In this document: in pieces, positions 1,201 to 45,877 of the stretch
Layout: every line of letters starts with the position of its first letter
Position numbering within the stretch: the first letter of the stretch is position 1
Assembly (NCBI GenBank): GCA_947359465.1
Contig: OX375877.1
Location: forward strand, 67,930,698-67,994,697
Direction: 5' to 3'
Source of the DNA: Metellina segmentata
Taxonomy: Eukaryota > Arthropoda > Arachnida > Araneae > Tetragnathidae
Length of the DNA: 64,000 nt
Made by a program: the position numbers and the translations under genes
Notes under the pieces: generated by a model
Database searches by the model: none
Told to the model about the DNA's origin: nothing
The model's input: the letters and a program-made list of their open reading frames with translations, nothing else

Positions 1201-2005
1201 TAGTTACTATTTTGATGAAAATGGTACTTTGTCATTAGCAAAATGTTGATGGACGATATATCCTGCGTAAAGTACTTAAGTACCGTTATTTCAAACGAAA
1301 TCTTTCATAGAGGGATATATCTAAGCACTTCAATAATTTACCGTCATATGGCTTGTAGACTAAAAACCATTGACTAACAAACATTCTCGAAACTACGTTA
1401 GTATGTGTCGGGAAACAAACACTTTCACGACCGATTCTACCCTCAAACCCTTGCGTGACTTCAGTACTAAAGTTTTTCTTTTTCACTTCCTGATGCGTGT
1501 CTTATGTGAGTCCTGGGAAGAATGATGTCTCTTTCGAGGTGAGAGATAATTTAATTTAAGAAAAAAATTAACCTTTCCTTTTGCAACCGAAGATCGTCAA
1601 GCCGTGGGTGACTGCATCGTATCTCGTTTTTGAGCAATGCTTTCACAAAGCGAACAATAGTGTTCTTGTCATCTGTTAATCAGGTCATTGCGTCCTTGTT
1701 CGCAATCACTTTGTGGAAAACAAATTCCACTATTAAATTGAATCGATTTTTCAGAAACTACTCGCGTGTTACACTTTTTTACGTTTGAGGTAAACTGACT
1801 AATTTACCGATTGGCGTCCAGGAAATTTTCCAGGTTTTTCCATGGGAGAGAGGAACAGCTTATCCGAACTGCGCAGTGGACAATCTAAAGCCCGTTAATA
1901 TCGAAACAAACAAAATCTTTTCCAGTTCTTCATCAATTGCATTAGGCCTCGGTAGCCAATTTGGAATGGATTAGCAATAGGAGTGTTGAGATTATTAAAC
2001 TTTAT
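1201..2005. other. Intergenic, no gene seen
   Basis: No supported gene. The short open frame on the minus strand at 1286-1486 has no recognisable motif and looks random. Confidence 0.45.
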
Positions 2006-2009
2006 TCAA

Positions 2010-2320
2010 ACCAAGACCTTCGTCGTGTACGTGCAAGCTGGTGTATGTTTAATATGTCGGGGTTCCATTCTTGTGTGTGGAAGTAAGGAAAGTGGGGTAC
2101 CAACTCAAGTGGTGTCCTCGTCATATGACTGTGACTCAAAATTATGAGGTATTGTTCTAGGACCTTTTCCTTCAAGATTGAATTTTTTACTGATGAATAG
2201 CCTGTTGTGTTGCTCCAGTGCAATTCAACTACCTACCTTTCACACTTCAAATGTCCAGCTCAGATGTTTCGCTCGTCATATGACCGTCAAAATCACGATA
2301 CATTGTTCTTCGATCCCTTC
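2010..2320 (+). mobile_element. SINE fragments (degenerate)
   Basis: Divergent copies of the SINE seen intact at 4395-4715. Shared words include GTGGTGTCCTCGTCAT, GACTCAAAATTA and TGTTGTGTTGCTCCAGTG. The tRNA-like head is missing, and a second partial piece lies around 2260-2320. Confidence 0.6.
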
Positions 2321-2324
2321 ACGA

Positions 2325-2665
2325 TTGGCCAACCAACCGGTCTGGTGGTTAAGGTGTTAGCCTCTAGATCGGAAGGTTCCTGTTTCGAATCCAGGTCAGT
2401 GCATGGATATTTGTAAACGTATGGTGTAGAGGCGGCTGGTGCACCTTAAATCTGTCGTGGCCGAAAGTCCTCACGTTGGGTTGGCGTGGAAGTTTGGAGA
2501 GTGGGGTGCCAGCTCAGGTGTTGCTTCGTCATCTGACCGTTCAAAATTACGAGGTGTTGTCCTCGGATCTTTCCCTTAAGGGACTGATCCCGGACCGTCG
2601 TCAATAGCCCGTTGTGTTGCTCTAGTACGACGTTAACAAAAATTACCAAATTACCATCAAGAACA
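2325..2665 (+). mobile_element. tRNA-derived SINE
   Basis: The head (about 2330-2410) resembles a tRNA. It contains a pol III A-box-like stretch (GTGGTTAAGGTGTTAGC) and a degraded B box (GTTTCGAATCCAG). The body and tail match the copies at 4395-4715 and 55918-56242. The tail ends in GTACGACGTTAA followed by ATTACC repeats. Confidence 0.75.
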
Positions 2666-2799
2666 TATATTAGCAAACTGGAAGGGTTAGATACCAGACC
2701 GTTGCTAATAGCCCGGTTTTTTTTTCTCCAGTGCGACGTTGAATAGCAACCTACCTTTAGTTGCAGAGCTACATAATATTGATAAAACTTTACGGAAGA

Positions 2800-3490
2800 T
2801 ATTTGTAAACGTATTGTGTAAAGGTTGCTGGTAAACCTAAAATCTATCGTGGCCGAAAGTTCTCACGTTGGATTGGTGTGGAAGTTTGGAGAGTGGGGTT
2901 TCAGCTCAGGTGGTGACTTGTCACCTGACCGTGGCTCAAAATTACGAGGTGTTGGCCTCGGATCCTTTTCTTAAGAGATTGATCCCGGACCGTCATCAAT
3001 AGCCTGTTGTGTTGCACTAGTACGACGTTAAATTAAAAATTACCAAAAAAATTAACATATTTAGGGAAACTTTCTACGTGGCGTCAGCCCGTTGTGTTGC
3101 TCTAGTACGACGTTAATTAAAATTACCATCTACATGGCTTCAAAGTTTAGTTAGTACAAAGGAGAGCGGGTTGATGAAATTCATGCTGATTGATATAACC
3201 TTAGAACGTTGAAAAAATATCTTTAATTTCCGTTGTGGTGTTCCCACATCACACCGTCCTTGAAATGAATGAGACAGGTAAGTTTGGAGAGTGGGGAGTC
3301 AGCTCAGTTGTGGCCTCGTCATTTGACCGTGGTTCAAAATTAAGTGGTGTTGTCCTATGATCTTTCCCTTAGAGTCAATAGCCCGTTGTGTTGCTCTAGT
3401 GCGACGTTAATTAAAAATTACCAAATTACCCTTCACGTTTGATTTCGGACCGTCGCCTATAGCCCGTTGTGTTGCTGTAATGCATCGTAA
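2800..3490 (+). mobile_element. Cluster of head-less SINE fragments
   Basis: At least three 5'-truncated pieces of the same SINE (about 2800-3060, 3270-3430 and 3440-3490). All keep the 3' part with the CCCGTTGTGTTGC word. The array of tails suggests repeated insertion next to older copies. Confidence 0.6.
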
Positions 3491-3856: not shown

Positions 3857-3937
3857 CTTTATTTTCTCCTGTGTCCGCATACATCGACCAATGGACAGAG
3901 GGTTGCTGAGAATAGCTTCTTCACAAGAAACAACCAA
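3857..3937 (+). CDS. Internal exon of secreted cuticular-type protein gene (putative)
   Basis: This 81 nt stretch is bounded by TTTATTTCAG on the left and GTAAGATT on the right. It is open in one frame for exactly 27 codons. It encodes a hydrophobic start (LYFLLCP) followed by a polar segment ending TRNNQ. Length and frame are phase 0, and the exon at 6950 also begins in phase 0, so the two join cleanly. Arthropod cuticular-protein genes commonly have an intron inside the signal peptide, so the hydrophobic stretch may be the end of a signal peptide whose initiator exon lies upstream. I infer the exon from splice signals and frame only. A transcript would be needed to be sure. Confidence 0.5.
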
Positions 3938-4394
3938 GTAAGATTTTATTCGGAATTTTCTATATTACGCATTTTTGCTCTTTATTCATTTCTCTACTGA
4001 CAAAATGCGTTTATTTAAACTTACGTTTATAGTTAGGCAGATTTAATGCCTAACTTTATACCATAATTATAATATCGTATTTATTCCTCTCAATGCTTAA
4101 TGAAAACGACATGAATTCCGACAATCTGTATCCCATTGTTTGAATAAGTAAGTACTGTGAATTAGAAATGTAACATATTCAAATTTAAATTGATAGTGCT
4201 AATGTCAGCACCAAAGGCAATTAAGAGAGCCCTAGATTTTAAAAAGAAAATCGAACACACATCTCAAACTATAAAACCATGTTGTAAAATTAATTAATAG
4301 TAACGTTCATAGAAAAGGGTTTAAAACAATTGCGAGACGAATTTCTCTCTGGTCACTATTCGCTATAAGATTAAAACTTTTTCCTTGCACCAAC

Positions 4395-4715
4395 AACCGG
4401 TATAGTGGTTAAGGTGTTAGCCTCTAGATCGGAAGGTTCCTGGTTCGAATCCGGGTCCGGGCATGGATGTTTGTAAGCGTATGGTGTAGAGGCGGCTGGT
4501 GCACCTTAAATCTGTCGTGGCCGAAAGTCCTCACGTTGGGTTGGCGTGGAAGTTTGGAGAGTGGGGTGTCAGCTCAGGTGTTGCTTCGTCATCTGACCGT
4601 GGTTCAAAATTACGAGGTGTTGTCCTCGGATCTTTCCCTTAAGGGACTGATCCCGGACCGTCGTCAATAGCCCGTTGTGTTGCTCTAGTACGACGTTAAC
4701 TAAAATTACCAATTA
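4395..4715 (+). mobile_element. tRNA-derived SINE, best-preserved plus-strand copy
   Basis: The head GGTATAGTGGTTAAGGTGTT (A box) and GGTTCGAATCC (B box) give a tRNA-like pol III promoter. The unrelated body of about 200 bp is shared with many copies in the window, and the 3' tail carries TTACC repeats. Body words such as GGCGGCTGGTGCACC and CCTCACGTTGGGTTGG recur at 2450, 34750, 41080 and 56080. Non-autonomous; a LINE in the genome would be its mobiliser. Confidence 0.85.
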
Positions 4716-5507
4716 CCTACCTTGCACCAACATTGCAGTACAACATTTATTTGACATTTGAGATTGATCATTCCCCATGAGAAAATATTCTTCATAATTC
4801 ATATTCTCATGTAATTATGGTGCTAGATTAGCACACGTGAAAAGTGAACCCGATAAAAAAGGTGAAATTTATGCTAGATTTCATGAAAAATTGTATGGAA
4901 GAAAATAACTATGAGCGTCAAAAGAATACAATTAATACGAAATAAATACATCACAACACAAATCCAAAACCGTCGTTCATGAGCCATTATAATTGAACAA
5001 GTTATATATTGGAGAAGGTAAAAAAGTACTTGTGTTAAAAAATTAAGAAAAAACACATTTCTCACGAAAGGTCTAACCTATTTTAGTCTTTATACTCGGT
5101 CTAAGTACTATTACCATTACTACATTTGATACGCAATTGATGCAGATATGAATACATAAGCATTTCATTATAGGGCGTGGAGCAAAAATATCTGTCATTG
5201 CTGACTTCTGCTGGTAATTTAGTAACTTTGCATACTTATAAAAAAATCAGAAACTTTTCGGCACAAATTTTATGTTAGGAATGTATTCCAAAAGAGATTT
5301 ATATGTATTCATTCACCTGCATTCAGAACGAAGCTGTAAAACGTCAAGGCGATTTGATTGAAATATATTATATACATTTCTGAAATATTGTGTTCGTTTC
5401 ATTTTATCAATTTACAAAATTCGTCGTTTCTATTTGTAGGATAACACACAGTTTAATTTAATGGGTTTAATGAGTGGTTTACTATTTCTACATATCAAAC
5501 AAAACAA

Positions 5508-6225
5508 TGCATGCTAATTTTTGGACCTTTCTGGGCCATAATTACAACTACTGCTTTATCTGAGGCATCGGTTTGGATGATAAATTCTTTAGAAAAGTCA
5601 GGGGTGTATAGCACAGGATTTTCCGTGCGTTTTCTCTTCAATCTCTTGAATGCTTTCTCACATTCTTCCGACCACTCAATAAATTATTTCCTATTTTCCC
5701 TTTAATGCATAGGTTAAAGGCTCGGCTATAATCCTGTATCCTTTTATATAACATTCATAATAGCTACCAAGTCCAAAAAACTGCATAATCTGAGCTTTAT
5801 TTTTAAGCATCGGGAAATCGACTACCTCCTTAATTTTCGCCTCTGTGGAGGTTCTTACACCCTCTTACTACGTGTCCTAAATATGTCAACAATTTTGTGC
5901 AAATCTAAACTTAGAAGGTTTAATTGTTAATTTTGTTGACGCTACTTTTCGTAAGACGATGGCTACATGTTTCACATGTTCTTTTCAATTTTCTGAAAAT
6001 ATGACCACGGCGTCCAGGTACGAAACACGAAATTCGTCGTATCCCTTTAACAACTGTGCCATAAATTTTTAAAAACAATAGGGTGCGTTTATCAATCCAA
6101 AAGGAAGAACTATGTGTCTATGACTTCTGAAGGTAGTTACAAATGTGGCCAATCTTCTAGGGTTTAAAGGTACCTGCCAATAACCTTTAGTCAAATCAAT
6201 CACCGCAATATTGTAACGTCATAGC
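5508..6225 (-). pseudogene. Gypsy-type reverse transcriptase/RNase H remnant
   Basis: Read on the minus strand, broken frames give a gypsy RT order: VIDLTKGYWQVPL, then LPFGLINAP, then YLDAVVIFSEN, then the connection and RNase H start (FFGLGSYYE, ...LTYALKGK). The usual YLDD or YIDD catalytic box reads YLDA, and several stops and frameshifts interrupt it. No LTRs were recognised around it. It sits in the host-gene intron in antisense orientation and is certainly inactive. Confidence 0.8.
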
Positions 6226-29095: not shown

Positions 29096-29477
29096 TAGTC
29101 GACAAAGTGGTCGATATAACATTGTTAGGGGTCAATTAGTCGATTGAAAAATATACGACATCATTGTACGCTTAATATTACCTCTAAATTAAATTTTTTA
29201 TTTCGCACATTAACCATCCCTCTTATCAAATGCATTATGTTAACAAGAACGTCAAAACAAAAACGTATCGCTTTGATTTAAAGCTTTTTTAAAAAAGCTA
29301 AATTAAAGCGATTAATTTTTAAAAAAAGCTTAATTTAATTTTAAAATAAATTAAATCAAGCTAAATTAAATTTTTTATTCCACATATTAACCATCCTTCT
29401 TATCTAATGTATCATATTAGAAGAACTTCAAAACAAAAACGCATCGCTTTGATTTTAAGCTTATGTCTTAAATATAC
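29096..29477. other. AT-rich spacer
   Basis: Contains an internal duplication (words ATTAACCATCC and AACAAAAACG(T/C)ATCGCTTTGATT at about 29210-29275 and 29390-29455). No gene. Confidence 0.5.
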
Positions 29478-29479
29478 TA

Positions 29480-30352
29480 CACAGTCCAGCCACATTAATG
29501 TGACCACCTGTCAAAGGCCAGAATAACCACCTTTGGACAGATGCGTACTTGTGCTGATCCATCGTGCCTTCCACAATGATGAGTGCACCCAGTGAATGCC
29601 AGGAAAACATTCCCCAAATCATAATGCTCCCTCCTCCAGCCTGGATCCTTCCAGAAATTGTTGCAGGGTGTTTGTTTTCATACGTTTCACGCTGTATACG
29701 CCAACGTCCATCTGTCCGATGGAGCATAAAACGTGATTCATCGTAAAAAGCCACCTGTCGCCACTCTGTGGACGTCAAGTTGCGGTACTGACGTGCAAAT
29801 TCCAGCCTTCGTCGCCGATGAACAGCAGTCAGCATAGGTGCATTAACCAGGTGTCTGCTGCGGAGGCCCATGCGCAGCAACGTTCGCTGAACCGTTGTTG
29901 AGGATACACTTTTCGTAGCCCCTTGGTTCATCTGGGAGGTCAGTTGCTCAACAGTTGCACGTCTATTCGCCCGAACGGATCTCCGTAGCCTTCGTTCGCC
30001 TCTGTCATCTATAGCCCGTGGTGCACCACATGTGCCACGCAGCTGATTTTGGATAGTGCCATTTTGCCATGCACGGTATACTTTTACCACGGCGGCACCC
30101 GAACAGTTCACAAAATTAGCCGTTTCCGAAATGCTTCCACCCTTGGCCCGAAAACCAATAATCATACCCTTTTGGACGTCGGATAAATCGCTACGTTTCT
30201 GCATTACACCAACGATTGAAATGCTTTCCGATGCCCTAGGACATCCTTTATATACACTCCACTGAAATGTGCTGCCACCTGCCTTTTGTGATTGGTTATT
30301 TCACGTTGACGTCGAAAGTAGGTGGTGGTCACATTAATGTGACTGGACTGTG
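29480..30352 (-). mobile_element. Tc1-like transposon (Tc1-2), internally deleted
   Basis: Inverted ends CACAGTCCAGCCACATTAAT / CACAGTCCAGTCACATTAAT are flanked by TA (29478-29479 and 30353-30354). The minus-strand transposase frame opens at 30204. It has a paired HTH (SDVQKGMIIGFRAKGGSISE, VVKVYRAW), a GAPRA linker, a second HTH, and the first catalytic aspartate in VAFYDESRFMLHRTDGRW, then IMIWGMFSWHS. The frame then jumps into the terminal repeat. The second D and the E with DPNPIEH-type context are missing, so about 0.4 kb is deleted. Non-autonomous derivative. Confidence 0.9.
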
Positions 30353-30599: not shown

Positions 30600-31110
30600 C
30601 CTCTTCAGATAGAATTGAAATAAATCATGTCCTGTGAAAAAGAGTATATTTCCATTGTCTGACCTTCAGATTTCAGTCATTCTCTTGGCCACACCTCATG
30701 AATTACCATACTTGTTGTTTCACTCTCATCCCATTCATTTGGCCAAGCTTGTCCTTTTGAGGTGTGATCATATCTAGTCATTGCCACGTACCAAATTTCC
30801 ACCGAGTTGGTATTCCTTCTGCTATGACATATGGTCCAGTTTACCTCGTTATCTTTATGTACCTTCCTGGTTGTTTTCTTTTTCTACTCTATCTTCTTTT
30901 CTATACTGAGATTTTCTACTCTATCTTCTTTTCTATACTTAGATTTTCTACTCTATCTTCTTTTCTATACTGAGATTTTCTACTCTATCTTCTTTTCTAT
31001 ACTGAGATTTTCTACTCTATCTACTTTTCCATTTTCATAATGACCAGCATAAGATTTAATCCTGTCTAGGAGAATTTCTCTTATCGCTTTCTCCACAGTA
31101 TAAATTTCTG
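30600..31110 (-). pseudogene. LINE RNase H-region remnant with internal tandem repeat
   Basis: Minus-strand translation in broken frames gives a WPNEWDE-type motif equivalent to WQNEWDEGETGRTVHDVLP of the LINE at 43819-45877. The piece after the repeat (31030-31110) matches the LINE segment near 44130-44190. A 33 bp repeat (TACTCTATCTTCTTTTCTAT core) is amplified about four to five times at 30885-31025 in the middle. Confidence 0.6.
30885..31025. repeat. 33 bp tandem repeat
   Basis: Four to five units of TTTTCTACTCTATCTTCTTT followed by TCTATACTGAGAT. The overlapping plus-strand open frames are repeat artefacts. Confidence 0.9.
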
Positions 31111-31633: not shown

Positions 31634-32053
31634 TAACTAACAAACTAACACCAACACACACTCCCGTGCCTAGTGTCGTGAGACACTGTACCAGTTTAAA
31701 TAAGTGTGGTCGGATGAGTAGAGCATGCCACCGAGGTGACATGTCTACCCAGAATGTTAGAGCACATTACATTACATTTATACATCCTTACATCTATACA
31801 GTATATACATTAAATCACTATACTAGGTTACATTATAAATATATATATACATCATGCAAGGTGAGAAAAAAGTTCGTTTTTCTTAGGATAATCAAGTCCT
31901 GATGATTTTCAATGAATCTCACCATGTTAATAATTTTAACCCTCGAGCCCTTGTTGCATGCAATGTTCCTGAGCCATGCAGTTTTTAGGTGGTCGGCAGG
32001 TGTTATCATATACCATGAGGCTGTAAGGGGGCAAACTGTGATGTAATGTAGAA
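31634..32053 (-). pseudogene. LINE 3' end (downstream part of split LINE)
   Basis: Minus strand. Codes for the end of the LINE protein (LHYITVCPLTASWYM, ADHLKTAWLRNIA, VRFIENHQDLI), then a 3' UTR ending at the MITE junction. It continues the frame that stops at 43819 (SENCSCGEIGTLL). The two reconnect at the palindrome insertion site, with the CHC-type motif spanning the break. 32048-32053 is the left target duplication GTAGAA. Confidence 0.85.
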
Positions 32054-33640
32054 AGTAGAGATAATATAGGGGTTCTGGAACAAGAGGATTGAGGATTTTA
32101 GGCACAGAGGATTGGAGATGATATAAGCATTTAATGGAAGATGGTCGTTGCTTGATAAGGTATTTGGGGAATCACTGATAAGGTTTGTGTGGTTTTCTGA
32201 TAAGCTGTTGAAAGAGGGGAGATAACGGTTGTTGGAAGGATAACAGAGGGTCGTGAGGGAAGGGGAGATAAGGAGATGTGTTTTTATTCAATAATTGTTT
32301 TATTTTTACATAAATTAATTAAAACGCTTAGACCCAAAGAAATTTACTTGTTTTTTTTTACATGTTGTTTATAAACGCTATATAAAACGCAGTGTAAATA
32401 GGAATGTTGTACACTAAACGATATTTAGAAAACGTTACAATGAATATTTATGCCTTTGGGAATATTACTTTTATACTTACATCAAGAAACTTTTATGCGT
32501 GTCTTACCACATACATTGCATTTTGGATTTTTAAAAAATTAAATACTAATTTTATAAACTGTGTGTTTTTCAATGCAAGATCTGAAATGAAATTTTATTT
32601 GCTATAAATATTTTTGTTTTTTAATTTAGATGCTTTCTCTTAAACACTAATTATACATTTGATGCTATAGTACATATTTTATTGCAGAATTTATTTTTAA
32701 ATAACGTAACCTTAAATAAAAGTACAAAAATCTTTTTTCTTTTATTTGAAAACTTTGCAAAACCCGTACTATGAACATGTTTCCTTGTAAATTTTTTTAA
32801 AATTGAACCAAAGAAAACTCACCCATATACCACAGAAATACAACACGGGACTTACAGAAGTAAGTTAATTAAACAAAGAAACAGTGGAACAAAGTTAATT
32901 AAACTTACAAAGTTTGATGACTTTAACGAATGAGTAGAAACGCAAATGACTCCTTATTCATTTGAAGAAGTTATAATTGTATTGAAACCAAACCATATAT
33001 TGTTTTTTAGTTATTCTTTTCTAGCCATACTATTTTTTTTATTTAAATAAATCTGTCTGAAATTTAGTGATTTAATTTTTTTTAGATTTACAAACTTTTT
33101 TAAATGAAATTTTCTTTGATTTATTGTAAAATGTTAAGATGATTTTACACCAAAATTAGATACTATTACACATATTATAATAATGATTTTGAAAAAATAC
33201 GATTGAAACATATAAATTAGCTATTATTACAAATTTTTAAATGCAGATTGCAAAAAAAATCTTTTTGATTTACAATGAAGACATTTAGCAGTTTAATTTC
33301 TTAAAGCGTGTTTTTATGTAAGAAAAAAAATTAAGATGAAACCTGTCAAAGTAAAATATTTTTTTACCTTAAGTTGAAACTTTGCAAGACCCATACTATG
33401 AAGATGTTTACTTGTACATTTGAAGTAGTCAAAATTAATGTTAATAAACTTTTAGTCCTTGAAGTTCTAAATTAAATGTTCTTTTTTTCTAATGCTCTTG
33501 CAAACCATACATTTTACTAAACATATGAACTTCTTTTTATTTACTTGAAAACCTTGTGTATTGCAGAGTTAAATGCGAATTTTGTACAAGTATTTTACAA
33601 GATACTTTGTATAGGTTTTTTATAATTTCAGATATACTAC
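32054..33640. other. Left arm, outer non-coding part
   Basis: Terminal region of the arm, strongly AT-rich and homopolymer-rich after about 32280. The first 230 bp are less AT-rich and polypurine-biased (GAGGATT, GGGGAGATAA). The mirror image is 42232-43818. Open frames of 65-67 codons here lack motifs, and I do not call them. Confidence 0.5.
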
Positions 33641-33644
33641 ATTG

Positions 33645-34900
33645 CTACGTTAAATGGATAGTAAGTGGGTTTTGTGATTTTGAAAATATTGTGTACACTT
33701 CTAGGCTGCTAAACAAAATAAATTGTTGCACTTTCTTGATAGTTAATGCATAATCTAAACATTTACTCACGCCACTGATAGTTTTACACATGAGTAAAAT
33801 TAAATAACAACTGAAAATTTATATACTAATTCATTTTTAAATGAATATATATCATTGAAATAATGTTTAAGTATGAATTCTATGTATTTCTTCAAACAAT
33901 CTCTGAAAAAAACAAATTGTTCTAAATCATATTGAAAAATAATTCTAAAACATATTGAAAAATAATTCTAAAACATATTGAAAGAAGTCAAACTGAAACA
34001 AAGTAAACTATATAACACTTTTTAGTTGAAAAACAACTAGGATTCACATATTTTACACACAATTATTGCATTATAGTAAAACCAAAAGAAAGTATTTTTT
34101 ACCTGCCTACATTTTTTAAGAGACATATATTTCCTATGAGCCAGTTATTAAATGCCGTCACCTCAGCTTTTGGGCAATGCAAATGATTTTTGTGATGACC
34201 CCATGATAGTTTTTGGATTTCTTTGTTGCTGCTTAGAGCACATAGTATATCGAATTTGGGACACCCAAAGTGTTCCAAGTTGATGTTTGGAATATTCAAG
34301 GCATCTAAGCGTTGTTTCTCAACACAACCACCTTTGTAAGCAACTAAGTACTGAGAGGCACTCTTTGTCTGCTTGTACAATTCCAAAAGTTTTGAGTCTA
34401 GCGCACAGTTTTACGATCTTTGGCACTAAGTTTATACTTATAAGGCAATAGGTTAAAACGAATACTTGAAGCTACTTGCGATTTTAAAGCGATGTATCTG
34501 TATTCACGTACTAAGAAACCTTCCTTAGTCTGAAATCCATCAAAATCCACAAGTGCACAGACATTAACGTAATGGTATGGTCATTTTAGTTAACGTCGTA
34601 CTAGACCAACACAACGGGCTATTGACGACGGTCCGGGATCAGTCCCTTAAGGGAAAGATCCGAGGACAACGCCTCGTAATTTTGAACCACGGTCAGATGA
34701 CGAAGCAACACCTGAGCTGGCACCCCACTCTCCAAACTTCCACGCCAACCCAACGTGAGGACTTTCGGCCACGACAGATTTAAGGTGCACCAGCCGCCTC
34801 TACACCATACGTTTACAAACATCCATGTCACACAGACATTAACATGACTATTGAAAAACGTTATATGTTCTTGGGAAAAATAATTGTAAACTGAAGACAC
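33645..34900 (-). pseudogene. Left-arm gene with DFDGF motif, SINE-interrupted, spliced
   Basis: Minus-strand pieces, 5' to 3': an open stretch from at least 34900 to 34844, then a SINE, then from 34568 VDFDGFQTKEGFLVREYRYI down to a stop near 34395. A one-base frame change leads into a 95-codon stretch (34386-34099: SQYLVAYKGG, NIPNINLEHFGCPKFDIL, HHKNHLHCPKAEV). This ends at a good donor CAG|GTAAAA (34103/34102). An acceptor TTTTTTCAG lies 200 bp on (33903) and leads into another open segment. The DxD-like start and the H-x-HCP end suggest a metal-dependent enzyme, perhaps an RNase H-fold nuclease, but I cannot name the family. The SINE and the frame change are present in both arms, so the gene was broken before the arms were duplicated. 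Confidence 0.6.
34569..34830 (-). mobile_element. SINE in the left arm
   Basis: 5'-truncated copy of the SINE family (no tRNA head), flanked by a perfect 13 bp duplication CACAGACATTAAC (34556-34568 and 34831-34843). The mirror copy at 41042-41305 has the same truncation point and the same duplication, so a single insertion was copied with the arm. Confidence 0.95.
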
Positions 34901-35468
34901 GAAGAACTGAACTATATAACACCATACACTTACTAATCAGTAAAGTTAATCTTATTTTAGTCCTATCTTTTGTGAGTGACAATGAACTCGTAAGTGAAGA
35001 ATGTACTCAGAAAACACGTGCTTGTGATAATGCGACAAGTGAAACTTTATGTTATAATACAGGATTTTAACAAAAGGAGTATGCTTAAATGTGTTTGTAA
35101 TTTGTCCTTTTTTTTTTTTTGCTCCATCACGTTGATGAGCTGAATACAATTCAATTCGATGACTAAACATGAGCAAGAAAGAAATATGTAACCAAATATA
35201 ATTTATGTAAGAGAAACTTTACTTTCTTTAAAGTATACCGATTTCTCTTGATTATGTAGTTTTATTTTTCTAAATTTACATCAGCAAAATTGAACTATTT
35301 ATTTAGGGGAACAAATCTTTGCCTTTTGTTGAACAGAAATTAGTATATTTGACTAGCATCAGTTTTTTTTTTTTTAATTGACGAAGATAACTTTTTTGAA
35401 GGGATTTAACTCAATAGGTCTTATAATTTTACACTTTAGAGTAACAGAGTAGTATAGTGTTTACGAAA

Positions 35469-36014
35469 ATGAATAACCATTATGTAAATATGAAGCCAAA
35501 ATTTCCAAGCATGTCGTTGCTCAATAAACGCCTATCTACGTTTAGAGATTGGCCACGCGCAAACTTTGACTTTTGGGACCTGGCCGAAAACGGATTGTTT
35601 TATACGGGTGTAATGGACAGGGTCAGGTGCTATTGGTGTGGCGAAGGGCTTGAAAATTGGCAAGGAGATGATGTAGTGAGACACGAACACATAAAGTTTT
35701 ATCCAAAATGTTTGGTAGCCCAACAACAACAAATGGTTGCTGACCCTATATCAAAAAGAACACCAACGGATGAAATTGTACAGGTGGATGAAATCAAGAA
35801 TAATACCAATGTTTTTATAAAAACCGAACCTTACCCCTCAAACAACAACAAGGACGAACGACTTTGTAAAATTTGTTTGGAATCGGAAATGGATGCTACT
35901 TTACAGCGTTGCGGTCATCTGGTCACATGCATGAGATGTGCGAAAGCTCTCTTAGCGGGTCCTATGTGCCGAACCAATATTTTACATAAAATTAAAACGT
36001 ACATTTGTTACTAA
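35469..36014 (+). CDS. BIR-RING inhibitor-of-apoptosis-like protein, left arm (intact)
   Basis: The first ATG is at 35469 (181 codons); the frame is open from 35457. One BIR domain (about residues 20-90) shows RLSTFRDWP, LAENGLFYTG, the zinc set CYWC...H...C (VRCYWCGEGLENWQ, then EHIKFYPKC). After a Gln/Asn-rich linker comes a C-terminal RING (about 135-180) with CKIC, RCGH and CMRC. The last pair reads GPMC where IAPs have CPxC, so one zinc ligand is missing. Viral and cellular IAPs of this size block caspases or act as E3 ligases. A single BIR plus RING resembles insect-virus IAPs more than the two-BIR cellular ones. The frame is intact, but ligase activity is doubtful given the missing cysteine. 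Confidence 0.85.
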   Translation: MNNHYVNMKPKFPSMSLLNKRLSTFRDWPRANFDFWDLAENGLFYTGVMDRVRCYWCGEGLENWQGDDVVRHEHIKFYPKCLVAQQQQMVADPISKRTPTDEIVQVDEIKNNTNVFIKTEPYPSNNNKDERLCKICLESEMDATLQRCGHLVTCMRCAKALLAGPMCRTNILHKIKTYICY

Positions 36015-36947
36015 ACGTTATCTACCCTTTGTCAATTCAAGTAGTAGATGCAATTTTAGTGACTAACTGAACATCACGTTAAAGAATTCTACAAGAGTGA
36101 TATTTTGAGTTTAATGGATGAAATTAACACATGTGCGGTAGCAAAAAGACTAGTAAGGAAGTTCGATACTTCTAAAATAATGATAAGACTTTCTATCAAA
36201 GACTTGTGGTAAAATCGTGTAGGAAAGACTTATATTTAATATATTTAGAAGGGATATAGTAACTATTTTACTTATTTGTTGTTTGTTCATTACATGCTAA
36301 ACCTATTTTGGATAGAGGAATTTTAAAGTGCCTTGAAAAGGAATTACAAATTGCTTTAAGAAAGATATGTGTAAAAGTACTCTGTAATACAAGAAAGCTG
36401 GAAATAAATATTTATATTTTGAGATATAACTGATTTTTTTTTGTGCATGACTTCTTTTTTTAATTGTTCTTGATAAACTTTATTTTGCTTGTTCCTTTAA
36501 AAAAAAAAAAAAAACATCGTAACTTTTTTTTGTTACTGCTTAGCTTATTTTTTACTGCTAAACGTTTTTTGTTTTGTTTTTGTTTATTGCTTAATTTTTT
36601 TGCCGCTTAACTTTGTTACTGTTAAATTTTGTTGTGTTGAAAATTAACTTTTTTTACTGTTTAACTTTTTTAACTGTTCAACTTTTTTTTTCTTATTCTA
36701 ATTTTTTTTTAACATTATCAAAAAAAAAATACTATAATTGTTGTGTAGAATAATTTTTTTGACAACACTGAATTGAAGGTATAATATTTATTGAAAACAT
36801 AGGAATCGGTAAAACAGTTAATATAATTGTTATAACATATCTTACAGGTCTTTTACATACATTTCTTTAATAGTATTGAAAATATCTGTTGTATTCAAAT
36901 TTTCAAAAAAGTTGCCTTCTAATATAATGTCATAAAAGTTTAACAAT
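36015..36947. other. Left arm, non-coding T-rich stretch
   Basis: 36420-36740 is a degenerate run of TTTTACTGTTTAACTTTTT-like units rich in homopolymers. AATAAA-type signals lie at about 36403. No gene. Mirror image at 38920-39800. Confidence 0.6.
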
Positions 36948-37304
36948 TTATTGTTCTCTCTCTCTTACAAAATGAATAGCAAACTCTTTCCAGTTAACAG
37001 CACATAAAGCAAGAGTGAAAAATCTGCAAAAGCATTCGTCAACATTCATCTTCATACATGCAAGTACAGATTGATTGACAATTTCATCCTTACAACCTAA
37101 GCAATCAAAAAGAATAGTAATAGTATTTACCACAATTTGCTTTAGACACTTGCAGAGAGAAGCTATAACTTCTCTCCAACATTCAGATTTACCAGTATCA
37201 ATGCAGTAAAGTTTGTAACTTTCATCAGGAAAACCATTTTGATTTTCAGTTTCACATAGTATGGCAGCAAATACGTCAAAAGCGATATTTTCAATATATC
37301 TCAC
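36948..37304 (-). CDS. Unknown Cys-rich open frame, left arm (118 codons)
   Basis: The frame is preceded by an in-frame stop and has no early ATG (it opens at GTG). It may therefore be a downstream exon or use an unusual start. The product has about 11 cysteines (DTGKSECWREVIASLCKCLK, ITILFDCLGCKDE, VDECFCRFFTLALCAVNW) and predicted helical segments. I do not recognise the family. Its mirror copy at about 38560-38919 is frameshifted. Conservation of the frame in one arm and the amphipathic pattern suggest it was a real gene of the parent element. Confidence 0.5.
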   Translation of the reverse strand: MRYIENIAFDVFAAILCETENQNGFPDESYKLYCIDTGKSECWREVIASLCKCLKQIVVNTITILFDCLGCKDEIVNQSVLACMKMNVDECFCRFFTLALCAVNWKEFAIHFVREREQ

Positions 37305-37390
37305 ACGTTAGCGTAGAATTCGTACAATTTAAAATACTGATCAAAATTCATAAAAACACAATGGGACGAGAAATGAAAACTATGATCTTT

Positions 37391-37744
37391 TTACTGAAAT
37401 ACACGTTGTAAAACCAAGTCCATTTTTTCAGCATCAAACACTTTAGAAAGGCAGACTCCCTTCTCTATAACTTTAACTTCGGAGGCAGTTGCAAACGCGA
37501 AAAACTTGATCACCTTCTTCATAAGAATATACCATGTTTTCGGATGCATAGAAACACATTCCTTCGTTGGTTGCAAGACACTGTGTTTACCTAAAGTAAA
37601 TTTACGTATGTGGACACGTGTGGAATCATTGGAGTTGTTAATTAGCACGAATAAATATTCGCCAAAGTGAAACATATTGTCTGGAAGTAATTGCATTGAC
37701 AAATTTAAGCTTTCCTCTGGAAACGCCTGATGGTTGAATCGCAT
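37391..37744 (-). CDS. PC4-like (transcription coactivator p15 fold) protein, left arm
   Basis: Start chosen at the ATG at 37744 (117 codons); the frame is open from 37816. The core reads FGEYLFVLINNSNDSTRVHI, then RKFTLGK, then TKECVSMHPKTWYILMKKV. This matches the PC4 pattern: a beta strand with (V/I)xIRxF/Y, a basic turn, then KG(I/V)SLxxxxW. PC4 domains bind single-stranded DNA as dimers and occur in cellular coactivators and in some DNA viruses and phages. Here it would serve replication or late transcription of the parent element (inference). It ends close to the palindrome centre, so the centre may have cut away whatever gene lay next. The right-arm copy is frameshifted. Confidence 0.6.
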   Translation of the reverse strand: MRFNHQAFPEESLNLSMQLLPDNMFHFGEYLFVLINNSNDSTRVHIRKFTLGKHSVLQPTKECVSMHPKTWYILMKKVIKFFAFATASEVKVIEKGVCLSKVFDAEKMDLVLQRVFQ

Positions 37745-37890
37745 TCTATTACACGCTTTGGGTTGGTTTTGTAAAACGCAACATTTTAAGAGCTTTGAGG
37801 TACACGTTTTCAACAAATAGCTTCAACTACCCAAGAGATAAAAAGTGTCGTCCAAAAGATAAATGAGATGAACAGAAATTTTAAACAAAC

Positions 37891-37973
37891 AGATCTAGTA
37901 GGAGCGAAAAAAAAACTACTACCGCCTACTTCCTGCTTGGAGGTAGGAAGTTTTTTTCGCTCCTACTAGATCT
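37891..37973. repeat. Palindrome centre with hairpin loop
   Basis: Arms reach AGATCTAGTAGGAGCG-A(9) on the left and T(7)-CGCTCCTACTAGATCT on the right. Between them is a 35 nt spacer holding a second inverted repeat, CCTACTTCC / GGAGGTAGG (37925-37933 and 37939-37947; 8 of 9 positions pair), around the loop TGCTT (37934-37938). The loop centre equals the element midpoint. Confidence 0.95.
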
Positions 37974-38019
37974 GTTTGTTTAAAATTTCTGTTCATCTCA
38001 TTTATCTTTTGGACGACAC

Positions 38020-38475
38020 TTTTTATCTCTTGGGTAGTTGAAGCTATTTGTTGAAAACGTGTACCTCAAAGCTCTTAAAATGTTGCGTTTTACAAAACCA
38101 ACCCAAAGCGTGTAATAGAATGCGATTCAACCATCAGGCGTTTCCAGAGGAAAGCTTAAATTTGTCAAATGCAATTACTTCCAGACAATATGTTTCACTT
38201 TGGCGAATATTTATTCGTGCTAATTAACAACTCCAATGATTCCACACGTGTCCACATACGTAAATTTACTTTAGGTAAACACAGTGTCTTGCAACCAACG
38301 AAGGAATGTGTTTTCTATGCATCCGAAAACATGGTATATTCTTATGAAGAAGGTGATCAAGTTTTTCGCGTTTGCAACTGCCTCCGAAGTTAAAGTTATA
38401 GAGAAGGGAGTCTGCCTTTCTAAAGTGTTTGATGCTGAAAAAATGGACTTGGTTTTTACACGTGTATTTCAGTAA
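38020..38475 (+). pseudogene. PC4-like copy, right arm (frameshifted)
   Basis: Mirror of 37391-37816. The frame is lost by single-base differences near 38165 and 38310 (TGTTTTCTATGCATCC where the left arm has TGTTTCTATGCATCC). The open pieces are 38169-38393 and 38284-38475. Confidence 0.85.
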
Positions 38476-38559
38476 AAAGATCAATAGTTTTCATTTCTCG
38501 TCCCATTGTGTTTTTATGAATTTTGATCAGTATTTTAATTTGTACGATTCTACGCTAAC

Positions 38560-38919
38560 GTGTGAGATATATTGAATATCGCTTTTGACGGTATTTGCTG
38601 CCATACTATGTGAAACTGAAAATCAAAATGGTTTTCCTGATGAAAGTTACAAACTTTACTGCATTGATACTGGTAAATCTGAATGTTGGAGAGAAGTTAT
38701 AGCTTCTCTCTGCAAGTGTCTCTAAAGCAAATTGTGGTAAATACTATTACTATTCTTTTTGATTGCTTAGGTTGTAAGGATGAAATTGTCAATCAATCTG
38801 TACTTGCATGTATGAAGATGAATGTTGACGAATGCTTTTGCAGATTTTTCACTCTTGCTTTATGTGCTGTTAACTGGAAAGAGTTTGCTATTCATTTTGT
38901 AAGAGAGAGAGAACAATAA
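38560..38919 (+). pseudogene. Cys-rich unknown copy, right arm (frameshifted)
   Basis: Mirror of 36948-37304. Small differences around 38570-38590 and 38717-38725 (GTGTCTCTAAAGC where the left arm gives GTGTCTAAAGC) break the frame; the part from about 38722 to 38919 is intact. Confidence 0.85.
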
Positions 38920-39802
38920 ATTGTTAAACTTTATGACATTATATTAGAAGGCAACTTTTTTGAAAATTTGAATACACAGATATTTTCAATACTATTAAAG
39001 AAATGTATGTAAAAGGACCTTGTAAGATATGTTATAACAATTATATTAACTGTTTTAACCGATTCCTATGTTTTCAATAAATATTATACCTTCAATTCAG
39101 TGTTGTCAAAAAAATTATTCTACACAACAATTATAGTATTATTTTTTTTGATAATGTTAAAAAAAATTAGAATAAGAAAAAAAAAGTTGAACAGTTAAAA
39201 AAGTTAAACAGTAAAAAAAGTTAATTTTCAACACAACAAAATTTACAGTAACAAAGTTAAGCGGCAAAAAAATTAAGCAATAAACAAAAACAAACAAAAA
39301 ACGTTTAGCAGTAAAAAATAAGCTAAGCAGTACAAAAAAAAGTTACGATGTTTTTTTTTTTTTTTTTTAAAGGAACAAGCAAAATAAAGTTTATCAAGAA
39401 CAATTAAAAAAAGAAGTCCATGCACAAAAAAAAAATCAGTTATATCTCAAAATATAAATATTTATTTCCAGCTTTCTTGTATTACAGAGTACTTTTACAC
39501 ATATCTTTCTTAAAGCAATTTGTAATTCCCTTTTCAAGGCACTTTAAAATTCCTCTATCCAAAATAGGTTTAGCATGTAATGAACAAACAACAAATAAGT
39601 AAAATAGTTACTATATCCCTTCTAAATATATTAAATATAAGTCTTTCCTACACGATTTTACCACAAGTCTTTGATAGAAAGTCTTATCATTATTTTAGAA
39701 GTATCGAACTTCCTTACTAGTCTTTTGCTACCGCACATGTGTTAATTTCATCCATTAAACTCAAAATATCACTCTTGTAGAATTCATTAACGTGATGTTC
39801 AG

Positions 39803-40415
39803 TTAGTCACTAAAATTGCATCTACTACTTGAATTGACAAAGGGTAGATAACGTTTAGTAACAAATGTACGTTTTAATTTATGTAAAATATTGGTTCGGC
39901 ACATAGGACCCGCTAAGAGAGCTTTCGCACATCTCATGCATGTGACCAGATGACCGCAACGCTGTAAAGTAGCATCCATTTCCGATTCCAAACAAATTTT
40001 ACAAAGTCGTTCGTCCTTGTTGTTGTTTGAGGGGTAAGGTTCGGTTTTTTTATAAAAACATTGGTGTTATTCTTGATTTCATCCACCTGTACAATTTCAT
40101 CCGTTGGTGTTCTTTTTGATATAGGGTCAGCAACCATTTGTTGTTGTTGGGCTACCAAACATTTTGGATAAAACTTTATGTGTTCGTGTCTCACTACATC
40201 ATCTCCTTGCCAATTTTCAAGCCCTTCGCCACACCTATAGCACCTGACCCTGTCCATTACACCCGTATAAAACAATCCGTTTTCGGCCAGGTCCCAAAAG
40301 TCAAAGTTTGCGCGTGGCCAATCTCTAAACGTAGGATAGGCGTTTATTGAGCAACGACATGCTTGAAATTTTTGGCTTCATATTTACATAATGGTTATTC
40401 ATTTTCGTAAACACT
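39803..40415 (-). pseudogene. BIR-RING copy, right arm (frameshifted)
   Basis: Mirror of 35457-36014. At least two small indels break the frame (near 40050 and 40010-40020, and near 40340). One BIR residue also differs (CYRC where the left arm has CYWC), and the RING end keeps the same GPMC. Fragments 40275-39934 and 39991-39803 remain open. Confidence 0.9.
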
Positions 40416-40944
40416 ATACTACTCTGTTACTCTAAAGTGTAAAATTATAAGACCTATTGATTAAATCCCTTCAAAAAAGTTATCTTCGTCAATTTAAAAA
40501 AAAAAAAACTGATGCTAGTCAAATATACTAATTTCTGTTCAACAAAAGGCAAAGATTTGTTCCCCTAAATAAATAGTTCAATTTTGCTGATGTAAATTTA
40601 GAAAAATAAAACTACATAATCAAGAGAAATCAGTATACTTTAAAGAAAGTAAAGTTCTCTTACATAAATTATATTTGGTTACATATTTCTTTCTTGCTTA
40701 TGTTTAGTCATCGAATTGAATTGTATTCAGCTCATCAACGTGATGGAGCAAAAAAAAAAAAAAGGACAAATTACAAACACATTTAAGCATACCTATTTGT
40801 TAAAATCCTGTATTATAACATAAAGTTTCACTTGTCGCATTATCACAAGCACGTGTTTTTCTGAGTACATTCTTCACTTACGAGTTCATTGTCACTCACA
40901 AAAGATAGGACTAAAATAAGATTAACTTACTGATTAGTAAGTGT

Positions 40945-42227
40945 ATGGTGTTATATAGTTCAGTTCTTCGTGTCTTCAGTTTACAATTATTTTTCCCCAA
41001 GGAACATATAACGTTTTTCAATAGTCATGTTAATGTCTGTGTGACATGGATGTTTGTAAACGTATGGTGTAGAGGCGGCTGGTGCACCTTAAATCTGTCG
41101 TGGCCGAAAGTCCTCACGTTGGGTTGGCGTGGAAGTTTGGAGAGTGGGGGTGCCAGCTCAGGTGTTGCTTCGTCATTGACCGTGGTTCAAAATTACGAGG
41201 CGTTGTCCCTCGGATCTTTCCCTTAAAGGACTGATCCCGGACCTGTCGTCAATAGCCCGTTGTGTTGGTCTAGTACGACGTTAACTAAAATGACCATACC
41301 ATTACGTTAATGTCTGTGCACTTGTGGATTTTGATGGATTTCAGACTAAGGAAGGTTTCTTAGTACGTGAATACAGATACATCGCTTTAAAATCGCAAGT
41401 AGCTTCAAGTATTCGTTTAACCCTATTGCTTTAATATAAACTTAGTGCCAAAGATCGTAAAACTGTGCGCTAGACTCAAAACTTTTGGAATTGTACAAGC
41501 AGACAAAGAGTGCCTCTCAGTACTTAGTTGCTTACAAAGGTGGTTGTGTTGAGAAACAACGCTTAGATGCCTTGAATATTCCAAACATCAACTTGGAACA
41601 CTTTGGGTGTCCCAAATTCGATATACTATGTGCTCTAAGCAGCAACAAAGAAATCCAAAAACTATCATGGGGTCATCACAAAAATCATTTGCATTGCCCA
41701 AAAGCTGAGGTGACGGCATTTAATAACTGGCTCATAGGAAATATATGTCTCTTAAAAAATGTAGGCAGGTAAAAAATACGTTCTTTTGGTTTTACTATAA
41801 TGCAATAATTGTGTGTAAAATATGTGAATCCTAGTTGTTTTTCAACTAAAAAGTGTTATATAGTTTACTTTGTTTCAGTTTGACTTCTTTCAATATGTTT
41901 TAGAATTATTTTTCAATATGTTTTAGAATTATTTTTCAATATGATTTAGAACAATTTGTTTTTTTCAGAGATTGTTTGAAGAAATACATAGAATTCATAC
42001 TTAAACATTATTTCAATGATATATATTCATTTAAAAATGAATTAGTATATAAATTTTTCAGTTGTTATTTAATTTTACTCATGTGTAAAACTATCAGTGG
42101 CGTGAGTAAATGTTTAGATTATGCATTAACTATCAAGAAAGTGCAACAATTTATTTTGTTTAGCAGCCTAGAAGTGTACACAATATTTTCAAAATCACAA
42201 AACCCACTTACTATCCATTTAACGTAG
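40945..42227 (+). pseudogene. Right-arm gene with DFDGF motif, SINE-interrupted
   Basis: Mirror of 33645-34900, with the same SINE insertion and the same stop/frame change before the 95-codon segment (41485-41772). The donor CAG|GTAAAA lies at 41769-41770 and the acceptor TTTTTTCAG ends at 41968. After splicing, the frame continues through KKYIEFILKHYFN to 42227. One extra T near 42055 relative to the left arm keeps this exon open longer here. Confidence 0.55.
41042..41305 (+). mobile_element. SINE in the right arm
   Basis: Same SINE as 34569-34830, flanked by GTTAATGTCTGTG (41029-41041 and 41306-41318). It has at least five one-base indels or changes that the left-arm copy lacks (see findings). 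Confidence 0.95.
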
Positions 42228-42231
42228 CAAT

Positions 42232-43818
42232 GTAGTATATCTGAAATTATAAAAAACCTATACAAAGTATCTTGTAAAATACTTGTACAAAATTCGCATT
42301 TAACTCTGCAATACACAAGGTTTTCAAGTAAATAAAAAGAAGTTCATATGTTTAGTAAAATGTATGGTTTGCAAGAGCATTAGAAAAAAAGAACATTTAA
42401 TTTAGAACTTCAAGGACTAAAAGTTTATTAACATTAATTTTGACTACTTCAAATGTACAAGTAAACATCTTCATAGTATGGGTCTTGCAAAGTTTCAACT
42501 TAAGGTAAAAAAATATTTTACTTTGACAGGTTTCATCTTAATTTTTTTTCTTACATAAAAACACGCTTTAAGAAATTAAACTGCTAAATGTCTTCATTGT
42601 AAATCAAAAAGATTTTTTTTGCAATCTGCATTTAAAAATTTGTAATAATAGCTAATTTATATGTTTCAATCGTATTTTTTCAAAATCATTATTATAATAT
42701 GTGTAATAGTATCTAATTTTGGTGTAAAATCATCTTAACATTTTACAATAAATCAAAGAAAATTTCATTTAAAAAAGTTTGTAAATCTAAAAAAAATTAA
42801 ATCACTAAATTTCAGACAGATTTATTTAAATAAAAAAAATAGTATGGCTAGAAAAGAATAACTAAAAAACAATATATGGTTTGGTTTCAATACAATTATA
42901 ACTTCTTCAAATGAATAAGGAGTCATTTGCGTTTCTACTCATTCGTTAAAGTCATCAAACTTTGTAAGTTTAATTAACTTTGTTCCACTGTTTCTTTGTT
43001 TAATTAACTTACTTCTGTAAGTCCCGTGTTGTATTTCTGTGGTATATGGGTGAGTTTTCTTTGGTTCAATTTAAAAAAAATTTACAAGGAAACATGTTCA
43101 TAGTACGGGTTTTGCAAAGTTTTCAAATAAAAGAAAAAAGATTTTTGTACTTTTATTTAAGGTTACGTTATTTAAAAATAAATTCTGCAATAAAATATGT
43201 ACTATAGCATCAAATGTATAATTAGTGTTTAAGAGAAAGCATCTAAATTAAAAAACAAAAATATTTATAGCAAATAAAATTTCATTTCAGATCTTGCATT
43301 GAAAAACACACAGTTTATAAAATTAGTATTTAATTTTTTAAAAATCCAAAATGCAATGTATGTGGTAAGACACGCATAAAAGTTTCTTGATGTAAGTATA
43401 AAAGTAATATTCCCAAAGGCATAAATATTCATTGTAACGTTTTCTAAATATCGTTTAGTGTACAACATTCCTATTTACACTGCGTTTTATATAGCGTTTA
43501 TAAACAACATGTAAAAAAAAACAAGTAAATTTCTTTGGGTCTAAGCGTTTTAATTAATTTATGTAAAAATAAAACAATTATTGAATAAAAACACATCTCC
43601 TTATCTCCCCTTCCCTCACGACCCTCTGTTATCCTTCCAACAACCGTTATCTCCCCTCTTTCAACAGCTTATCAGAAAACCACACAAACCTTATCAGTGA
43701 TTCCCCAAATACCTTATCAAGCAACGACCATCTTCCATTAAATGCTTATATCATCTCCAATCCTCTGTGCCTAAAATCCTCAATCCTCTTGTTCCAGAAC
43801 CCCTATATTATCTCTACT
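42232..43818. other. Right arm, outer non-coding part
   Basis: Mirror of 32054-33640; AT-rich, ending in CCTATATTATCTCTACT at 43818. No gene called. Confidence 0.5.
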
Positions 43819-45877
43819 GTAGAAGTGTGCCAATTTCACCACATGAGCAGTTTTCGGACTTGATTTTCTTAAACCCCGTTAGGTAGGATGGGAATGGGCC
43901 GTGCCCTGTGAAGAAAAGTGTCTCTTCCCTGGTCCAACTTGATGATTTTAGTGACACTTTTGGTAACACATCGTGCACCGTCCTGCCTGTTTCTCCTTCG
44001 TCCCATTCATTCTGCCATGCACCAAGTAGCCAGCTAGTGGTTTCCTTTCTGTAATGGCTCTTGGGCCATTTCACCCCTTCATCTACGCATTCCATTGTTG
44101 TTGCCTCTTTTGCTAATCTATCTGCTTCTTCGTTTCCATCGTGACCCGCATGGGCTTTAATCCATCCTAGGCAAATTTCCTTGTTGTTGTATAGAAAGTG
44201 TTGTATTTTTCGTGCCAGTGGACTAGGCGTCTTGGGGTTTTTAAGTGCAGGAGACCAGCTCGACTGTCCGACCAGATCTTGACATTTTTGTCTGCTTTTG
44301 CTTCTGCTGCTTTTATGGCTGAAAGCATTCCATAAAGCTCCGAACGGAAAACGGAATTATTATCCTGCATGATCGTGGACCATTGTTGTGTTATGCGCCC
44401 TTCTTGAATAGCGCAGAATGCACTTCCCACTCTCTTCTCCATTTTAGAGCCATCGGTATAGTAGCTTATGCTGGAATGAAGAACTCCCCCTGCAGGATTT
44501 ATTCTGTCATTCGAAAGAGTTTTAGCTGGATGTATAGACCAGCCTATCGCTCTTTCCTCGTAGTCATCTTTGTTATAATTTGCATCTCCAAGCTTTGTAT
44601 TTATTTTCATTCTCATTTTGACGCACACCGCTTCTTTTCTTTTTGAAGTGAAAGATGCAGTGGTGCAATTCCCGCAATTGTTTGAAGGTCCATAGTGGAT
44701 GCTGTTCTGTAACTTCCTGTTATTGAGATCAGAAATTTTCTTTGTATCCCATTTAACTTTCTTACAGTACGTTGAGTTGGGTTGTGACACCAGACCACTG
44801 CACCGTGACTCAACATTCTTTCAGTCAATGTTTTGTACAGCAGCTTTCGAAATTTATGGCCTATTCCCCATCTCGTTCCAGCTATTCTTTGTAGCATTTG
44901 AAATTGGAACATGGCTTTTTGTCCTATAGTTTGTACATGAGCCGCCCAATTTAGTTTCTCGTCTAGTATAAGTCCTAGGTACTTTATAGTACTAGTTCGT
45001 TTAATTCTTCGTTTATTCCAGTAGATGGAAGGTCCTCTCGAGAGATTACTAAGGAGGAGGTATTTAGTCTTTTCTTCGGACACGTTCAGACCTTGCTGAT
45101 CTGTCCAGGTTTTTAACAGATCTAGTGCATTTGTGGCTAGCTCACCTAATTTGCGCTCTGATTTTGCCGCGATTACAAAGGCAAAGTCGTCAGCAAATGC
45201 TTGCATGTGGACTCCTTCAGGCCATGGTAGATCCAATGCTTCATCGGTCACGATATTCCACAGCACTGGTCCGCTGCACGATCCCTGTGGACAGCCTTTT
45301 GCTTGTTTCTTGATTGCCGGACCTTCGCTTGTCATTAACATGACTTTTCTATCCTCGAGGACTTTAGCAAGAGTATTTTTAATATTGGAAGGACATTTAG
45401 ATTTCGCTAGTCTGTTTTGATGACATTGTAGTTAAGACTGTCGAATTCCCCCTCAATATCAACCGACACAACAGCTACGTGCAGTTTTTTCTTTTTCTCT
45501 TCATTAATTCTGTTTAGTAAGGTTTCTAGAGCACTGTCAACAGATGAGCCCTCCTTGAAACCAAATTGGAGTGCATGCCTTTCTTTGTTTTCAACTTGAT
45601 GATAAGTTAATCTTTGCACAAGCAATCTCTCCAAAGCTTTTCAAATAGTTGGCAGAAGGGAAATTGGTCGATATGATTTTATTTCATCGTGTTTTCTTCC
45701 CGCCTTGTGGAAAAGAATAATAATTCCGATTTTTAGGGACTTAGGAAAGGTTGCAAGATTTAGACATTTATTGAAGAAAGCATATAGGGGAGTTCTGGAA
45801 ATTTGTTATTGATTATTTGCAACACCAGATTATCTATACCATCATATCCAGGTGCTTTGCCTTTCGGAAGATAGTTT
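43819..45877 (-). pseudogene. 5'-truncated R1/LOA-type LINE: RT and RNase H (upstream part)
   Basis: Minus strand from the truncated 5' end at about 45877: LPKGKAPGYDGIDN (RT start), then 45634-45407 (LVQRLTYHQ, VVSVDIEGEFDSL). Next is 45341-44613 (GCPQGSCSGPVLWN, then the catalytic box AFADDFAFVI, then EKTKYLLLS). RNase H follows at 44460-44170 (YYTDGSKMEKRVGSAFCAI, FRSELYGMLSAIKAAEA, IWSDSRAGL). The C-terminal part is 44095-43819 (WLLGAWQNEWDEGE, ENCSCGEIGTLL). It continues at 32053. Several frameshifts. It is truncated in the RT domain, as expected for target-primed reverse transcription. Confidence 0.9.

Follow-up and report, generated by a model that had tools for sequence, protein, structure and literature searches.

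Polintons or Mavericks (animal adintoviruses) are thought to replicate as protein-primed, virus-like linear DNA, a view that, to our knowledge, rests mainly on their genes and ends. Adenovirus, which is also protein-primed, produces incomplete or defective genomes in which the left end is mirrored, and these arise in infected cells. The inverted repeats of intact vertebrate Mavericks measure 46-1,447 bp (mean 402) in elements of 12.7-24.6 kb (PMC8097293, in excerpt). Here we describe a palindromic element in the spider Metellina segmentata, found in a window of 64,000 nucleotides (the whole stretch of DNA that was analysed; assembly GCA_947359465.1, contig OX375877.1, positions 67,930,698 to 67,994,697 of the forward strand), together with its relatives in the same assembly. 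The element resembles Polintons in its 6-bp target-site duplication, AGT-repeat termini and inverted ends, and in sequence common to an element with integrase, capsid, protease and ATPase genes, but its inverted repeat spans almost all of its 11.8 kb, and it lacks the core genes. Because the repeats of intact vertebrate Mavericks reach 1,447 bp, arms of 5-7 kb without the core lie outside that range. One viral end is mirrored as in the defective adenovirus genomes, whereas the palindromes described here sit in the genome, have multiplied to many loci and form diverged lineages. They integrate as palindromes, have an arm in common with a capsid- and integrase-bearing element, have folded repeatedly and evolve with their two arms in concert. 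We consider it likely that they are satellite-like Polintons that arose by snap-back while replicating, probably with protein priming, that were integrated in trans and that have their arms re-templated in each cycle. Among the entries listed by our search, which was confined to the open-access PMC literature, there was no palindromic Polinton and no described equivalent.

The element in the window is a near-perfect palindrome of 11,765 bp (32054-43818). By arm alignment and end reading, the left arm (32054..37913, +, terminus AGTAGAG) and the right arm (37951..43818, -, terminus CTCTACT) are inverted copies, and the exact arms are separated by an apex of 37 nt (37914..37950). The two arms differ in 83 of 5,910 aligned columns (28 substitutions and 55 gap columns); 14 of these differences fall in the apex, only three in the outer 2.38 kb, and many within single-base runs. 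The hexamer GTAGAA stands on either side (32048..32053 on the left, 43819..43824 on the right). An earlier first-pass annotation, made from the letters of the window, had claimed the palindrome with its two inverted arms, the termini and the GTAGAA duplication, and all of these were borne out by the arm alignment and the end reading. The frames of at least 100 codons in this copy comprise an IAP-like gene and fragments of a second one, but none of the core Polinton genes (pPolB, integrase, ATPase, protease, capsid); it is therefore a non-autonomous derivative rather than an autonomous member of the Polinton/Maverick group.

The element interrupts a long interspersed nuclear element (LINE; 43825..45341, -, continuing to the left of 32048), whose frames presumably correspond to reverse transcriptase and RNase H. 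That the LINE frame becomes contiguous without the element, as had been claimed, held true: once the element and one GTAGAA are taken out, the frame is open for 250 codons over the joint. The joint was spanned without interruption in all 40 LINE copies scored out of 1,628 first-look candidates, in 39 of them over exactly 309 nt and in one over 307. Two uninterrupted copies were inspected, and each carries a single hexamer at the joint, GTAGAG, one base off GTAGAA.

Other palindromic copies with other 6-bp duplications, which the first-pass annotation had proposed to look for, were found when the assembly (1.67 Gb, 173 contigs) was searched, so the window copy is neither a product of chance nor an isolated oddity. 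Among 26 palindromes whose ends were read, the window copy included, an exact flanking 6-bp duplication is present in 23, and all 23 hexamers are distinct. The 26 are copies A to H (eight copies, A being that of the window), C2:70.54 and ten more copies with a 143-nt gap between their centre-adjacent sequences, and C1:73.78, C3:101.57, C8:88.84, C11:27.75, C13:12.13, C7:2.78 and C1:113.68; ends were left unread at C11:82.9, at both C5:129.8 pairs and at most of the 143-nt-gap and PolB pairs. The three not counted are D, H and C7:67.9, one of ten end pairs, whose right terminus lies outside the stretch. The terminal motif is AGTAGA in the window type and AGTAGT in three other palindrome end types; the latter conform to the Polinton/Maverick motif, (AGT)2...(ACT)2 or (AG)3...(CT)3, and the former is one base off. 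The hexamer of C1:73.78, CACGTG, is self-complementary, and that of C3:101.57 (L071/L072), CGTACC, is exact only if one extra terminal ACT triplet is allowed, a possible trace of terminal slippage.

Since both ends abut one duplication in 23 copies, and copies with the same fold occupy different sites, the palindrome itself was the integrating unit. The same two observations make it highly improbable that a normal Polinton inserted first and was duplicated in inverted form afterwards, through chromosomal breakage or faulty replication, although chromosome breaks are known to yield fold-back inverted duplications (PMC7467729 and PMC10622511, in excerpt) and such an origin could apply to copy D, described below.

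The family is large. The first kb of the arm gave 56 matches in the assembly, and after 16 short secondary ones were dropped, the 40 main matches formed 16 convergent pairs and eight unpaired matches, with zero divergent and zero same-strand pairs. Long terminal repeats would also give a pair of outer arms, so that such a pair does not by itself identify a palindrome, and one of the 16 pairs is the non-palindromic C3 element. The centre-adjacent kb gave 73 matches, that is, 32 convergent pairs (with a gap of 143-145 nt in 18) and nine unpaired. Finally, 64 matches to PolB (PF03175), listed from the 91 of 393 candidates that were scored, included nine convergent and no divergent pairs within 15 kb. 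Together these give at least about 50 convergent-pair loci (15 + 26 + 9; six centre pairs repeat arm pairs, and C32 is counted twice), which is a lower bound because only the best candidates were scored and most pairs were not read. The sole PolB pair that was fully read, on C13, is palindromic over 14.1 kb; each of its arms contains a truncated PolB frame, and the arms are 99.98% alike over the 9.48 kb compared. The palindromes belong to at least two Polinton groups, and an amplified family with several fold points and with arms evolving together goes beyond what the first-pass annotation saw.

The arm is shared with a non-palindromic element at C3:565362-594192, which has its own 6-bp duplication (TTCATT) and carries the arm, with gaps, from position 156 inward. 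Arm positions 156-3449 (32209..35502 in the window, +) are present in pieces, inverted, at the right end of C3. Arm positions 4176-5832 (36229..37885, +) are present at its left end, where they are interrupted by a 2.4-kb stretch; neither the stretches of C3 that were read nor the centre search showed them on the right. Among the proteins of C3, an integrase with chromodomain and a packaging ATPase score above the Pfam cut-off, an adenovirus-type protease match falls below it, and a major-capsid-type protein was assigned by fold comparison of an 85%-identical relative. The rve and Chromo domains of the relative L036 agree with the definition of adintoviruses, which includes an integrase with a C-terminal chromodomain (PMC11071296, in excerpt). 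Most of the named relatives of the capsid-type protein in the databases come from spiders; a profile of these relatives matched no PDB sequence, so that the fold comparison alone gave a match, and a scan of viral contigs with the capsid protein, which may omit the records of this genome, returned no relative. Five proteins had no match in PHROGs. In NCBIfam nothing reached the cut-off: the integrase hit transposases of the IS type, and the ATPase had a single weak match.

The proposal of the first-pass annotation that the element is a non-autonomous, all-palindrome derivative of a Polinton/adintovirus-like element is supported by the 6-bp duplications, by the arm shared with C3 and by the lack of core genes inside. 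Transposons consisting wholly of inverted repeats are known, for example the FB elements of Drosophila, which are likewise nearly all inverted repeat and non-autonomous. A fold-back element of another class (FB-like, or hAT/MULE-like), Polinton-like at its ends only, is nevertheless scarcely credible here, given the 6-bp duplications, the AGTAGT termini, an arm common to an element with integrase, capsid-type, protease-like and ATPase genes, and the existence of other palindromes that contain PolB. FB elements differ in class, duplication length and gene relatives; their duplications are longer and their arms consist of short internal repeats, while the duplications here are of 6 bp and the arms carry genes.

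Two candidates for a full parent of the arms were rejected. The element at C4:53139800-53160800 (L041, L042) has a capsid protein 100% alike to that of C3 and also PolB frames, but its ends are unrelated, which suggests that ends may have been exchanged between elements. At C9:46.46 the apex hairpin is followed by a short stretch of the outer arm in inverted orientation. The PolB frames in L031 and L042 match DNA_pol_B_2, and an OTU-like match was not returned.

Palindromes of this family fold at several points. The A-type and 143-nt-gap apexes are, by eye, related small hairpins of 37 and 35 nt near arm position 5,810-5,880, and a related apex hairpin is also found in the C6 and C7 copies, which are about 9% from the window. 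Alternative folds include a 56-nt loop at arm 3774/3833, present in two copies in opposite loop orientations; 308 nt at arm 4453/4763; 22 nt following an internally rearranged arm in L026; 107 nt at arm 1335/1451 in copy H; 2 nt in the PolB group; and C11:27.75, in which the halves stop near arm 5754 and 4816. The copies with the 56-nt, 308-nt and C11:27.75 folds are 0.6-1.1% apart over about 3.1 kb of arm, and because several folds occur on such near-identical arms, it seems that similar progenitors have repeatedly given rise to palindromes. At the 3774/3833 fold there is a 4-nt overlap between the halves, and in H one of 8 nt, as would be expected if a 3' end annealed to a short inverted match and was then extended. 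In addition, an unplaced 57.9-kb contig (G000:C32:49461-57889) has one outer-arm match and, at another fold point, two apexes with 4-nt gaps, spaced by about 2.8 kb; these repeated apexes are possibly a concatemer or an assembly tangle.

While copies differ from each other by 0.18-4.2% in the window's group and by about 9% beyond it, the two arms of a copy differ by 0-0.63% in 14 copies; in the majority of the copies compared, arm thus resembles arm more closely than one element resembles another. The arm-versus-arm differences are 17/3795 in A, 2/3809 in B, 1/3833 in C, 0/3858 in E, 0/3973 in F, 7/3872 in G and 96/3966 in D. Arms of the second group differ at 0, 0, 0 and 1 positions per about 3,100, whereas 19-35 differences separate one fold group from another; L024 and L025 hardly differ from each other, and the arms of L026 are 99.8% alike. 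In C6, 3,475 mirrored columns contain 7 mismatches and 12 gap columns, and in C7, 3,488 mirrored columns contain 22 mismatches and 48 gap columns, each difference being counted twice. In nine copies of the 143-nt-gap group, the 269-nt ends are identical in five, and the other four show one substitution, one gap, one gap, and four substitutions with 34 gap columns.

An alignment of A, B, C, E and F has 103 variable columns among 3,458 usable ones, and at 84 of these both arms agree in every element. In these five copies, the count leaving out D, G and H, 52 private substitutions are mirrored and 15 are one-armed, nine of the latter being in A. Likewise, both of the tandem duplications of copy F are present in each arm. 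The same likeness might come about if a palindrome formed once or a few times, became an ordinary integrase-mobilised transposon and had its arms kept alike by gene conversion after integration, as in long chromosomal palindromes; nearby arms with a short loop are good substrates for conversion, and one fold is common to many copies, as seen in the 143-145 nt gap. We regard this as unlikely, because one-arm events persist. Copy G (C10:94021044-94038890; L019-L021) has a roughly 6-kb insertion in one arm only, with an apparent 7-nt duplication (arm 3881-3887) and later than the palindrome, and copy C has a one-sided rearrangement of which the other arm is free; neither was copied across. Moreover, G has its seven arm differences and E none though the two are only 0.5% apart, H, apparently older, has 28/750, and the several folds on near-identical arms indicate that palindromes arise repeatedly.

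According to the snap-back reading that we favour, a strand would fold back during extrachromosomal, probably protein-primed replication and copy its own end, giving one end twice as mirror arms. A displaced or 3'-ended strand would snap back at a short inverted match or hairpin and be extended to the terminus, and the product would be linear DNA with a terminal origin at each end. PolB and integrase would be supplied in trans by full-length Polintons, since the window copy shows no frame for the one or the other. In every cycle, one arm would at some stage serve as the template for its partner, which may explain why arms stay identical while lineages drift. The arm genes, above all the IAP-like gene, would be maintained as cargo, and the outcome would behave as a satellite or defective-interfering genome turned stable transposon family. 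The terminal triplets and the one extra triplet would at most be an indirect sign of protein-primed extrachromosomal replication. Maverick terminal repeats have been read as allowing jumping-back in such replication (PMC8097293, in excerpt), and the extra ACT triplet in one copy fits that reading.

Several findings weigh against the snap-back reading. The duplications do not reveal which integrase acted. In the window copy taken by itself, one-arm private changes outnumber mirrored ones (nine against two), and its left arm differs by 0.32% from B but by 0.45% from the right arm of the same element. Similarly, the left arm of D (C12:87099598-87113016; L013, L014) is nearer to F (0.18%) than to its own right arm; the 96 differences between its arms include a rearrangement, and D has mirror-image host flanks with no matching hexamer, so that it is either a larger inverted duplication or a local misassembly. 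Copy H, apparently old or decayed, is without a duplication and has an altered right terminus in addition to its arm differences. The L023 fold has eight extra bases instead of an overlap, and contig C32 carries repeated apexes. As for the full-length relative that the first-pass annotation proposed to look for, C3 does share the arm and has integrase, capsid-type and ATPase genes, but it is unlike the palindromes in the outermost 155 bases and beyond arm position 5832, which means that no exact parental match was found for the place where the window copy folds; there is no PolB in the read parts of C3, and none of the 64 listed PolB matches lies inside it. C4 has the capsid gene of C3 yet other ends.

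The mirror-image flanks of D, the repeated apexes on C32 and the single-base runs in which arm differences of the window copy often fall are also what assembly artefacts, such as hairpin reads or collapsed repeats, might leave. We find it very unlikely that the palindromes are such artefacts in general, since a read artefact would mirror the flanks too, while the flanks differ and bear exact 6-bp duplications in 23 copies, and since the LINE targeted in the window was uninterrupted in every copy scored.

A further reading, possible but in our view less likely than not, takes a single arm as the unit of inheritance: a linear molecule that is open and protein-primed at one end and has a self-priming hairpin at the other, the palindrome being its obligatory replicative dimer. 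Each round would open the dimer, and the arm would snap back at the apex hairpin and rebuild the other arm. The element would then be a Polinton-derived satellite with hybrid protein-primed/hairpin replication, concerted arms as its signature and a virus-like IAP gene as cargo. A comparable system is the rolling-hairpin replication of parvoviruses, in which self-priming at a terminal hairpin would make one strand the template for its other half; however, the frames searched included no recognisable replication gene of the parvovirus type, and the ends here look protein-primed.

If the snap-back reading is right, the palindromes, with their mirrored end, varied folds, Polinton duplications and matched arms, would be a genomic record of Polinton replication, which would become testable through extrachromosomal DNA, terminal protein and helper dependence. 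Animal Polintons would also support their own satellite genomes, here at dozens of loci, and such large palindromes could give rise to double-stranded RNA and make the genome unstable.

The IAP-like gene of the left arm (35469..36014, +, 181 aa) is an open frame whose BIR and RING domains are clear by Pfam and by PDB sequence. Its copy in the right arm (39855..40402, -) is broken by small indels, due to decay or consensus error. The frame is open in 18 of 20 arms examined (aligned over >90%), and dN/dS is 0.49-0.67 between the window's group and the second group and, with small counts, 0.23-0.96 over all 21 pairs. The second gene (36842..37805, -) is split here into frames of 141 and 118 codons, its right-arm counterpart (38059..39025, +) is broken, and so is the gene throughout the A family. 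It is open over 319 aa in the relative L039, where the protein shows a weak PC4-like match below cut-off and is 21% identical to a frame near PolB in C4. A large protein search, which needs shared 5-residue words, returned no homologue at E <= 0.001 for either the IAP-like or the 319-aa protein.

Outside the element, a 32-bp tandem repeat array, TTTTCTACTCTATCTTCTTTTCTATACTGAGA, lies at 30880-31039, about 1 kb to its left, and a 247-codon frame at 29461-30204 (-) presumably encodes a mariner-type transposase.

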